Assembly (NCBI GenBank): GCA_031291715.1
Contig: JARLIN010000448.1
Location: forward strand, 1-51,651
Length of the DNA: 51,651 nucleotides
Direction of reading: 5' to 3'
Source: Rhodopila sp.
GTDB taxonomy: Bacteria > Pseudomonadota > Alphaproteobacteria > Acetobacterales > Acetobacteraceae
Each line of letters begins with the position of its first letter. Within the stretch, counting starts at the first letter, position 1. This document shows positions 8,285 through 45,501 of the stretch, piece by piece. The position numbers were made by a program, and so were the translations under genes. The notes beneath the pieces were generated by a model. The model did no database searches and was not told the origin of the DNA. It worked only from the letters and a program-made list of their open reading frames with translations.

Positions 8285-8508
8285 CAGCCCCGAGGCATGG
8301 CTGGGTTCAGCGCCAAATGCGCGCGGCCACCCCGCCAACCCCGCGCACATGCCACCCCCTTCGGGCCGCTGGTATTACCTGGGGAACGAGCATGGCACCT
8401 ACTTTTGTGTCATGGCCGGGCTTGGCCCGGCCACCCACGTCTCGCGGTGCCAATACATGCAAAGTCGTGGGTAGCCGGGTGAAGTCCCGCTATGGCACGG
8501 GCGGTTAA
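8285..8508. other. Intergenic gap with a REP-like palindrome
   Basis: This 224-bp gap separates the converging M3 peptidase and SMP-30 genes. It contains TGGCCGGGC (8413-8421) and GCCCGGCCA (8425-8433) around a TTG loop, the clearest copy of a palindrome family seen elsewhere in the window. I see no gene in the gap. Confidence 0.6.
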
Positions 8509-10617: not shown

Positions 10618-10694
10618 ATGACGGTGGGAGAACGATTGGGCCGCCCAAACCATTCTCCCGTGGCCGCCCTATCCTGACGCGCATGGGGCCAAGC
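10618..10694 (+). repeat. 77-bp direct repeat, copy 1
   Basis: Matches 10815-10891 at 73 of 77 positions by hand alignment. It contains the small palindrome TTGGGC-C-GCCCAA nested inside GAGAA/TTCTC arms. The second copy starts 197 bp downstream. Confidence 0.85.
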
Positions 10695-10814
10695 CTCACC
10701 GGCATCAGGATAAGGACGTAGATGGAACAGGGCGTTCTCTCTGACCGTCATGGCCGGGCGTGTCCCGGCCATCCGCTCCCCGGCCGTGCGCAGATGGCTG
10801 GGACACCCCCACCC

Positions 10815-10891
10815 ATGACGGCGAGAGAACGATTGGGCCGCCCAAACCATTCTCCCGTGGCCGCCCTATCCTGATGCGCGTGGGGCCAAGC
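10815..10891 (+). repeat. 77-bp direct repeat, copy 2
   Basis: Second copy of the repeat at 10618-10694, differing at four positions. The two copies flank a REP-like palindrome at 10750-10772, so the whole block could have arisen by duplication of a palindrome-plus-spacer unit. Confidence 0.85.
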
Positions 10892-10925
10892 TCGCTCATG
10901 CCATATAGCGAAACGTTTCCAGTCG

Positions 10926-20264: not shown

Positions 20265-20347
20265 ACGGGCGGGATTCCACGGCGGCTTGACGAAAGAAGG
20301 GCGGAAACTATGGTCCGGCCTCGCTCATCGCAAGGACCCGCGCACCC

Positions 20348-37568: not shown

Positions 37569-37821
37569 TAATACCAACCCGCGTTGGCGGCGGCCCTGTA
37601 TCCTCGCCACGGCCCAGCGGCACGCGGGGGCACTTGCCGCGCCTCTCACCGCCACGGCCCGGCGACACTCGGGGTCACTTGCCGCGCCTCTCACCGACAT
37701 GGCCCGGCGACAGTCCGGGCCATCTGCCGCGGCACGGTGCTGGATCAGATGGCCGTAACTGTCGCCAGGCCATGTCGGATGGGGAATGCCCGTGAGTTAA
37801 TCTTTCCGCCGCTTGGTATAA
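37569..37821. repeat. MITE-like element, long copy (about 250 bp)
   Basis: Starts TAATACCAACCCGCG and ends CGCTTGGTATAA, inverted TATACCAA-type ends like the element at 23819-23903. The last 35 bp match that copy closely. The middle holds a 45-bp tandem repeat and has no coding function. It fills most of the gap between murA and ppa and could influence ppa expression, since it ends about 75 bp before that start codon. Confidence 0.65.
37608..37742. repeat. 45-bp tandem repeat, about three units
   Basis: Units begin at 37608, 37653 and 37698 (CACGGCCC, CACGGCCC, CATGGCCC), exactly 45 bp apart. The first two share CACTTGCCGCGCCTCTCACC; the third is more diverged in its second half. This is a minisatellite-like block inside the MITE-like element. 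Confidence 0.85.
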
Positions 37822-41850: not shown

Positions 41851-43908
41851 TCAGGCTGGAACCCGAACGCCGGGTCGCAGGCCCTGTGCGAGTTTTGGCA
41901 GCACCGGCAGCAGACGGTCCAGGTCTCGTTCCGCCACGCAAACCAGGTATTGGTCAGCGGCGGGTGTATCGCCTTCGGATTCAGGCATCGGCAGGCCGTC
42001 CGGTCCGAGCGGCAGGGCGGTCAGGCCGAGGTCGCCATAGACTTTCAGCAACTCGGGTCCCGCGCACCACACGGCGGCATCCAATCCTTCCTGCTGCGCC
42101 AGGTCGCGCAGGCGCCAGATGGCGGAGACGCGATCGGTTTCATCGCCCGCCGGATCGCCCAGGCCCAGCAGCACGGGTCCGCAGCGACGGAACGGGATCG
42201 CGGCCCGCGCCGACTCGCCCATGAGCAAACCATCGGCTTCGTTTGGTGCCGAGAGGCCGGGGCGCGCGCTCAGGCCGAGCAGGAGCTGGCGGGCATTGCT
42301 ATCCCAGGGGAGGTAGTGGACACGGCCCGGCCGCAGCAGCAGCCAGATCGCGATCAGGCCGAGGAACACCGCGATACCGACCGCCAGCCGGACACTGTTC
42401 GGCAATTCCCGGGATATGACGACCGCCCAAAAAGCATTGTTGTGCAGCAGGTGCGTTTGCGAGCGGCTGGCCGCCAGCGACAGCAGGCACACAGCAAGGA
42501 CGGCCAATGTCAACACGCTGCCGGGTTGCAGCGGCCCCGTCATCAAATGCGCGTGGCGGTAGAAGCAGGCCCGGAACGGCGCGAGCAACAGGGTCGTGAG
42601 GACAAGGACGCCGACCACCCACAGCCGGTTGTCCTGCGTCGCGGCGAAGGCGGCGCCCATGACCAGCAGCAGGATGGTCAATCCCCAGGCGAGATTGACC
42701 CGGTGCGACAGGCCGATCGCCATCACCACCAGACCGGCGCCGATCAGCGAAGGCACGAACTGGCCCGCCTGACTGGCCAATGCGCCATAGTCCGGATCGA
42801 TCCAGGAAAAATCCGCCTGCGGGGCCAGCACGCCGAGGCACAGCATCAGCACGCCGCACAGGCCGACGGCCCCGGTCGCCGCGGTGACGGCGAAGTCCGG
42901 CTCGCTCCAGCGGCCGATCGCCTGCACGGGGGGCAGGCGTCCGACATGGCGCAGCAGGCCGCCGCCGCGCAGCAGGATCTCGTTGCCGGCGAACAGGGAG
43001 CCGGCGAGAAACAGCGGGATCACATAATAATACAGGCGGAAGACGACGATCGCGCCAACGATATGCGGGGCGCTGATATAGGGTTCCAGCCCGAACAGCA
43101 TCGCGGTGTCGAACACGCCGATACCGCCGGGCAGGTTGGCGGCCAGGCCGGCGGTGTAGGAAGCGACGTAGACGCCGAGGAAGATCAGCCAGGTCAGGCC
43201 GGGCGCGTGCGGCAGCAGGGCGTAGAAGATGGTGGCGGTGACAGCGACATCAACCGTGGCCAGCAGCACCTGGACGATCGCCATACGCCAGCCGGGCAGC
43301 TCGATATCATGGCCGAAGACCTTCATCCGGCCGAAGACCCTCGACAGCGTCACGTAGCCCAGGACGATGGCCCAGAGCAGTGCGCCGGCGCCGTACAGCG
43401 CGATCTTCGGCAGGTGCTGGCCGAAGAACGGTATCGACCGCGGCTCCACGAACAGGATGGCGCCGCCCAGAACCATGCCTCCCAGGCCGAAGGTCAGGCT
43501 GCAGAACGCCACGGTCTTGCCGATCTGTAACGGCGTCAGGCCCCAGTGCGCGTATAGCCGGTAGCGCACCGCGGCACCGGACACCGCGGCGAAGCCCAGG
43601 TTGTGCGACAGCGAGAAGGCGCAGAACGACGCGAAAGCGACCCGGCCGTAGGACACTTTATGGCCGGCGTAGATCGTCCCGAGGCGGTCGTAGAAGGTCA
43701 GGATGAAGTAGGACAGGATTGTCCAAACGAACGAGAAGACCAGCGAGTGCACTGGGATCGCCTCCAGCGCCTCGCCGATATCCTGTAGCCGCAGATGGCG
43801 GAATTCCCGCTGCACAACATAGATCGCGCCGATCAGGAGTGCCACGCCCAGCACGGCCGGCAGATGGCGGGCCCAGCTTTTCAAAGCGTTTTGCGTTCCG
43901 GAAGCCAT
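41851..43908 (-). CDS. MprF-like membrane protein: lysyl-phosphatidylglycerol synthase flippase domain with short C-terminal domain
   Basis: A 685-residue membrane protein. About residues 1-540 hold 12-14 helices of the LPG synthase transmembrane (UPF0104) type, with landmarks SLSHNLGFAAVSGAAVRYRLY and LAANLPGGIGVFDTAMLFGL. The remaining 145 residues resemble only the start of the DUF2156 aminoacyl-transfer domain (HYLPWDSNARQLL onwards), whereas full MprF proteins have about 300 residues there. Full MprF uses Lys-tRNA to add lysine to phosphatidylglycerol and flips the lipid outwards. The short version may only move lipid, or may be truncated. It lies 3 bp after the lysK region. Confidence 0.78.
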   Translation of the reverse strand: MASGTQNALKSWARHLPAVLGVALLIGAIYVVQREFRHLRLQDIGEALEAIPVHSLVFSFVWTILSYFILTFYDRLGTIYAGHKVSYGRVAFASFCAFSLSHNLGFAAVSGAAVRYRLYAHWGLTPLQIGKTVAFCSLTFGLGGMVLGGAILFVEPRSIPFFGQHLPKIALYGAGALLWAIVLGYVTLSRVFGRMKVFGHDIELPGWRMAIVQVLLATVDVAVTATIFYALLPHAPGLTWLIFLGVYVASYTAGLAANLPGGIGVFDTAMLFGLEPYISAPHIVGAIVVFRLYYYVIPLFLAGSLFAGNEILLRGGGLLRHVGRLPPVQAIGRWSEPDFAVTAATGAVGLCGVLMLCLGVLAPQADFSWIDPDYGALASQAGQFVPSLIGAGLVVMAIGLSHRVNLAWGLTILLLVMGAAFAATQDNRLWVVGVLVLTTLLLAPFRACFYRHAHLMTGPLQPGSVLTLAVLAVCLLSLAASRSQTHLLHNNAFWAVVISRELPNSVRLAVGIAVFLGLIAIWLLLRPGRVHYLPWDSNARQLLLGLSARPGLSAPNEADGLLMGESARAAIPFRRCGPVLLGLGDPAGDETDRVSAIWRLRDLAQQEGLDAAVWCAGPELLKVYGDLGLTALPLGPDGLPMPESEGDTPAADQYLVCVAERDLDRLLPVLPKLAQGLRPGVRVPA

Positions 43909-43911
43909 GCT

Positions 43912-45501
43912 TCAGGCCGCATCCGCCCTACGCGCCAGCGCCGATTGGATCAGCGCGATCGTCTCGGGGATGCCGTAGAGGGCGACGAAACCGCCGAAGC
44001 GGGGACCTTCCTGCTGGCCGAGCAGAACTTGATAGAGGCAGCCGAAGAAGCTCCGCAGGTCCGGGAACGGGTGGCGCTTGCCGACCTCGAACACCACGTT
44101 CTGGATCGCCTCGGACGTGGCGTCGGCGGGAAGGGCCGCCAGCGACGCGGCCAGATCTTCCAGTGCGGCGCGTTCCATTGCGTCGGGCTGCCGATAGCGC
44201 TTTCCGGGGCGGACGAGGTCCTGGTAGTAGGCGATGGCGTGGTTCACCAGGCGGGCGAGCAGTGGCTGGGTTGCCGGACTGGCGCCGGTGACGTAGCGGC
44301 GGATGAAGCCCCACAGGATGTCGGGCGAGTCCGCGTTCACCACGCTGGCCAGGTTCAGCAGCATGCCAAAGGAGATCGGGCTTCCGGCGTGGTTGGGCAG
44401 GCTTCCGGCGTGTATGTGCCAGGCTGGGTTGATGCGTTGCTCCGGTTCCGGCTGGATCCGCATCTTTTCCAGGTTGCCGACGTATTCGTCCACCGCGCGG
44501 GGGATGACGTCAAAATACAACCGCTTGGCGCGCTGCGGCTGGTTGTACATGAACTGAGACAGGGATTCAGGCGGAGCGTAGGTCAGCCATTCATCTACCG
44601 ACAGGCCGTTGCCCTTGGACTTGCTGATCTTCTGGCCGTGCTGGTCGAGGAACAGCTCGTAGGTCATGCCTTCCGGCGGCAGGCCGCCCAGGATGCGGCA
44701 GATGCGGCTGGACAGTTTCACGGAGTCGATCAGGTCCTTGCCGGACATCTCGTAGTCCACGCCCAGCGCATACCAGCGCATGGCCCAGTCGGCCTTCCAT
44801 TGCAGCTTGCAGGCGCCGCCCTTGACGGATGTCTCGAAGGTTTCGCCGGTCGCGGGGTCGATCCAGGTCACGGTGCCCGCGGCGGGATCGATTCGCTCCA
44901 TCGGCACCTGCATGACGATCCCGGTATGTGGATGGATCGGCAGGATCGGCGAGTAGGTTGCCTGCCGTTCCGCCCGAAGCGTCGGCAGGGTCACGGCCAT
45001 GACGGCCTCGTAGCGTTCCAGGACCCGGACCAGCGCGGCGTCGAAACGGCCGGACCTGTAGTATTCCGTCGAGGAGGCGAATTCGTATTAGAAGCCGAAA
45101 GAATCCAGGAACGCGCGCAGCCGGGCGTTGTTGTGGGCGCCGAAGCTGTCGTGAGTGCCGAACGGGTCGGGGATCTGGGTTAGCGGCTTGCCGAGATACG
45201 GCGTCAGCATGTCCCGGTTGGGGATGTTGTCCGGTACCTTGCGCAGCCCGTCCATGTCGTCGCTGAACGCCAGCAGCTTCGACGGCATCCCCGTGAGTTC
45301 GGTGAAGGCCCGGCGCACCCAGGTTGTCCGCGCGACTTCCCCGAACGTGCCGATATGCGGCAGGCCGGAGGGGCCGTAGCCGGTCTCGAACAGCGCGTGG
45401 TCCTTGCCGGACGCAGCGAGGCGATGGGCGACTTTCCGCGCTTCCTCGAATGGCCATGCCTTCGGAATATCGGAAAGGTTGTTGCGGACTGTATCGGACA
45501 T
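43912..45501 (-). pseudogene. lysK: Class I lysine-tRNA ligase gene interrupted by an in-frame TAA
   Basis: Class I LysRS homology runs over the whole span in one frame, about 529 codons, the normal size. The N-terminal 137 residues include the HIGH-type motif PSGLPHIG at 44-51. The frame then meets TAA at 45088-45090 (after AFLDSFGF) and continues without shift as [20 protein letters not shown] to the KMSKS-type KISKSKGN at about 291-298 and the normal C-terminus. A single base change from a Glu or Gln codon would explain it. Options: a true nonsense mutation with another LysRS elsewhere, readthrough, reinitiation (ATG 45000 has GAGG upstream) or a sequence error. UAA is not known to encode selenocysteine or pyrrolysine, so special-amino-acid recoding is unlikely. 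Confidence 0.85.

Follow-up and report, generated by a model that had tools for sequence, protein, structure and literature searches.

Class I lysyl-tRNA synthetases (LysRS; LysK/LysRS1, families NF001968 and PF01921) are exemplified by 1IRX of Pyrococcus horikoshii, and most of the alpha-proteobacteria examined by Shaul et al. (PMC1475646) code for LysRS1. The lysK gene of the Rhodopila genome studied here is like these enzymes over its whole length, in both signature motifs and in its pattern of selection, and it is 85-87% identical to its counterparts in the three nearest same-genus genomes; it differs by one in-frame TAA, at codon 138. Genes with interruptions have been described before in draft and finished genomes. 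By resequencing interrupted genes of M. smegmatis, Deshayes et al. (2007, PMC1852416) traced 28 of 73, a large share of the cases tested, to sequencing errors; their results concern an older genome and include frameshifts. Our gene is alike in having a single interruption in an otherwise intact frame, but differs in being the sole LysRS found. In the argument of Belinky et al. (2021, PMC7918605), selection as strong after a stop as before it was used to infer readthrough. Low dN/dS on both sides is common to their in-frame stops and ours, but their argument draws largely on stops at the same position of orthologues, and the lysK stop is present in one genome only. We regard the TAA as most likely an error or rare variant of the draft sequence, not a novel mode of producing the enzyme.

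The window (the whole stretch of DNA analyzed, 51,651 nucleotides) is contig C228 of a 6.24 Mb draft assembly comprising 545 contigs, with 91.13% completeness and 4.29% contamination. The nearest named relative is Rhodopila globiformis (Acetobacteraceae), whose lysK product shares 87.1% identity over residues 1-518. The features of the locus are as follows.

41851 to 43908, minus strand: MprF-like gene, unbroken, 3 bases downstream of lysK (NF033480, 321 bits, below the 600-bit cut-off)
43912 to 45087, minus strand: downstream piece of lysK, residues 139-529 plus TGA, with KISKSKGN (NF001968 positions 141-526; 1IRX match; dN/dS)
44998 to 45009, minus strand: candidate restart read from the sequence, GAGG, a 5-base spacer and ATG 45000 (Met168)
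45088 to 45090, minus strand: in-frame TAA, codon 138, next base T (sequence; column stop-free in 104 distinct relatives)
45091 to 45501, minus strand: upstream piece of lysK, residues 1-137, with PSGLPHIG (NF001968 positions 10-139; 1IRX match)

Translation of the minus strand from 45501 to 43912 gives 529 residues with one internal stop, so that lysK is not one uninterrupted reading frame. When the two pieces were searched apart, they matched adjoining parts of NF001968 (lysine--tRNA ligase, 528 positions) with 221 bits upstream and 602 bits downstream, each singly below the 648-bit cut-off; since these positions adjoin, frame and order are intact. PF01921 scored 424.8 bits against the gene, with the stop read through in the search. 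In addition, a profile built from ten intact relatives matched 1IRX at 3.1e-49; the residue of that protein opposite the stop column is Glu121. An earlier note on this DNA had described a class I LysRS gene broken by a single in-frame TAA, with the frame unchanged across it and both class I signatures surviving; it left out the strand, which is minus. Translation and family profiles bear this out, and PSGLPHIG (HIGH-like) and KISKSKGN (KMSKS-like) are both intact.

The lysK-mprF neighborhood is kept in all five same-genus genomes searched, which supports the place of the contig in the genus. Positions 41851-45501 set a maker of Lys-tRNA beside its likely user, the MprF-like protein (lysylphosphatidylglycerol synthetase family). 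Elsewhere in the window, short repeats at about 8404-8504, 10686-10915, and 37690-37754 have many scattered copies in relatives G006, G008, and G029.

We compared selection on either side of the stop using dN/dS (NG86). For the three nearest relatives, the part before the stop gave 0.107, 0.109, and 0.144, and the part after it 0.108, 0.104, and 0.110. Over the full set of eight relatives, the ratios ranged from 0.096 to 0.245 before the stop and from 0.086 to 0.185 after; high dS values in many pairs (up to 1.53) make all these ratios rough. These values fall within those of intact relative pairs, 0.074-0.290 for the upstream part and 0.065-0.246 for the downstream part. No sign of a decayed pseudogene was found in lysK, either as relaxed selection or as a further stop in frame, and the low dN/dS and absence of further stops confirm the earlier observation that the downstream half shows no decay. 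The measure averages over the time since divergence, so a very recent mutation and an error are indistinguishable by it. Overall, lysK has the anatomy of a working, essential gene, single-copy and under selection, in which a single letter is wrong.

None of the relatives examined shares the stop. The codon-138 column is variable among 104 distinct relatives (E in 57, D in 39, Q, S, and T in 2 each, A and H in 1 each), and a stop occurs there in none of them. An internal stop was seen in our lysK alone among 51 lysK matches from 59 genomes, and again in ours alone among 141 matches from 150 family genomes, the two sets having four genomes in common. The 141 are matches of 1.5e-35 or better, six of them fragments; a tally of 144 over the cut-off in the 150 genomes takes in weak matches to other proteins. 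The aligned sequence of relative L022 shows two stops, which sit just before and just after its conserved frame and were discarded. Nine of the 150 family genomes have no strong lysK match (G060, G063, G075, G087, G146, G147, G169, G175, and G194), two of which, G087 and G146, are listed as 100% complete. Among the entries listed in our literature search, we found no report of an interrupted lysK.

With respect to other in-frame stops, the window was divided into 30 homology tiles covering 11,053 codons (non-overlapping best matches, each 60% or more identical to a frame from a same-genus genome), and an in-frame stop was present in 5 of the 30. The lysK tile is the one with a genuine stop, its flanks matching at 100% and 88% over 25 residues each, and the other four match poorly on at least one side of the stop. 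The lysK stop is thus more than chance. Apparent frameshifts near 20270, 43899, 45622, and 48375 look like shadow frames of neighboring genes or extensions upstream of starts, and they arose because an earlier frame listing ran from stop to stop.

Further analysis covered the rest of the assembly. A codon-usage scan of 838,755 bases, taking in the window and 58 other stretches, yielded two candidates, lysK alone being convincing; the same scan over 400,000 bases of relative G008 gave two shadow-like frames. The scan recovered both known cases, and its sensitivity was gauged by those two alone; the C539 stretch, picked for its hit, was scanned separately. Judged by eye, candidates L251 (own genome), L292, and L303 (both G008) look like antisense shadow frames. 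Stops were present in 3 of 129 matches to MFS transporters, all weak (at most 66 bits). Among ABC-ATPase matches, 1 of the 150 scored (from 242 candidates) contained a stop, a single TAA, as against 0 of 116 in G008. That match is a YbbA-like ABC ATPase, otherwise intact, with a lone TAA directly after LLLAD of the Walker B motif (L232, G000:C539, 7497-7499, minus strand). In ABC ATPases the residue after LLLAD is the Walker B glutamate; by eye, an FtsX-like permease frame seems to come after the gene. Collectively, lone in-frame stops are rare in this assembly, yet lysK is not the sole case.

We consider it probable that the lysK TAA reflects either a single wrong base in the draft consensus or a rare variant taken up by the assembler. 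On this account, lysK would be an ordinary, essential, single-copy class I LysRS gene, and the TAA would most likely be missing from the working gene of the living population; the base is taken to be wrong or rare because a cell whose sole LysRS gene holds this stop should be unable to grow. The single stop in an otherwise intact and selected frame points this way, as do the lack of any other LysRS in the assembly, the fragmented and partly contaminated draft, and the second otherwise intact gene, the YbbA-like ABC ATPase, that also carries a lone TAA. Against it, such stops are not widespread in the assembly, as seen in the codon-usage scan, the window tiles, and the MFS transporters, and it is a coincidence that an essential gene was struck, though the finding was picked for that. 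Among the explanations that the earlier note had offered, sequencing error fits best, while cover by another LysRS is unsupported and no finding favors readthrough or reinitiation.

PF01921 has one match over its cut-off in the whole assembly (91% complete), and PF00152 is found in two proteins, EpmA (TIGR00462, 381 bits against a cut-off of 287) and AspRS (NF001750, 803 bits against a cut-off of 443). A second complete LysRS, be it a class II LysS or a second LysK, was not found in the assembly at this completeness. Class II lysS (TIGR00499) exceeds the cut-off in 4 of 59 genomes, our own not among them, and in none of the 32 same-genus genomes. Of these 32, 30 have lysK, and the two in which neither LysRS was seen are 80% and 64% complete. 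The four lysS genomes fall within the 8 of 59 that have no strong lysK match, which suggests that a genome carries one or the other LysRS, not both, and the relatives have no second full-length lysK among the matches listed. Ranking next after a consensus error or rare variant is a real, very recent nonsense mutation, with an intact LysRS encoded in the unassembled or unbinned part of the genome, or with the sequence coming from a mixed or dying lineage. The undecayed downstream half is what a very recent change would leave, and the assembly may lack about 9% of the genome. We nevertheless regard this as unlikely, given that the assembly has no second LysRS, that the same-genus genomes lack lysS, that no relative has a second full-length lysK among the listed matches, and that the four lysS genomes sit where strong lysK matches do not.

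If the stop is real, it might instead be read through at codon 138 by near-cognate tRNAs or an unseen suppressor tRNA, with enough full-length LysRS produced. Selection after the stop equals that before it, the sign used by Belinky et al. (PMC7918605), yet the same dN/dS results from a very recent change or an error. Relatives carry E, D, Q, S, T, A, or H in this column, so the enzyme would probably accept Gln there. In one E. coli sample, Tyr, Gln, Lys, or Ala replaced TAA (PMC11126739). The reporter results of that E. coli study count against the reading: TAA was the least leaky stop, with a mean of medians of 0.01-0.05% of wild type, and termination was more accurate when the next base was T; the context in lysK is TAA-T. 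A tRNA with anticodon TTA, which would read UAA, is absent from the 42 typed of 44 tRNA matches, a set that is incomplete and contains no tRNA-His; tRNA-Lys with ttt and with ctt were both found. The RNA after the stop is likewise unremarkable, folding no better than shuffled sequences (z 0.50), and the stop is common to none of the relatives examined. We therefore hold readthrough to be improbable.

Alternatively, termination at the TAA could be followed by a new start at ATG 45000, the enzyme being made as two chains of residues 1-137 and 168-529. The start is as the earlier note had described it, preceded by GAGG and omitting about 30 residues; counted exactly, a restart at residue 168 would lose 29 residues and the stop position. 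In its favor, the spacing between GAGG and ATG is good, selection acts on both pieces, and laboratory work has yielded split synthetases that function as two chains. Against this, the dropped segment, residues 139-167, holds seven columns that are at least 97% conserved (Y139, F141, S143, Y148, G151, F153, and D154) and shows no sign of release from constraint, and none of the relatives examined has an interrupted lysK. Two chains are accordingly a very unlikely form of this enzyme.

More doubtful again is the reading in which the sole LysRS gene truly carries a fixed TAA and near-cognate tRNAs at UAA give just enough enzyme. Since Lys is among the residues found at read-through UAA in the E. 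coli sample (PMC11126739), LysRS output could, in such a cell, follow the level of charged tRNA-Lys.

Genome-wide reassignment of TAA to an amino acid, to which the lone TAAs of two otherwise intact genes (lysK, where the column is mostly acidic in relatives, and the ABC ATPase, after LLLAD) might seem to point, can be dismissed almost entirely, because in-frame TAAs are far too rare and the terminator counts contradict it: 7 of 30 window frames stop at a TAA, in 4 cases at precisely the point where the relative's frame closes, which marks the codon as a terminator here, and it also ends 28 of 189 coding-like frames in the codon-usage scan sample.

If the TAA is an error, as the favored explanation has it, the finding would be of little importance beyond this assembly, where automatic annotation would mark the sole LysRS gene as a pseudogene or as two fragments. 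A stop that proved real and fixed would make lysK a rare example of an essential single-copy synthetase that works behind a UAA, and, should output indeed follow charged tRNA-Lys, the stop codon would act as a self-regulator of an essential synthetase.
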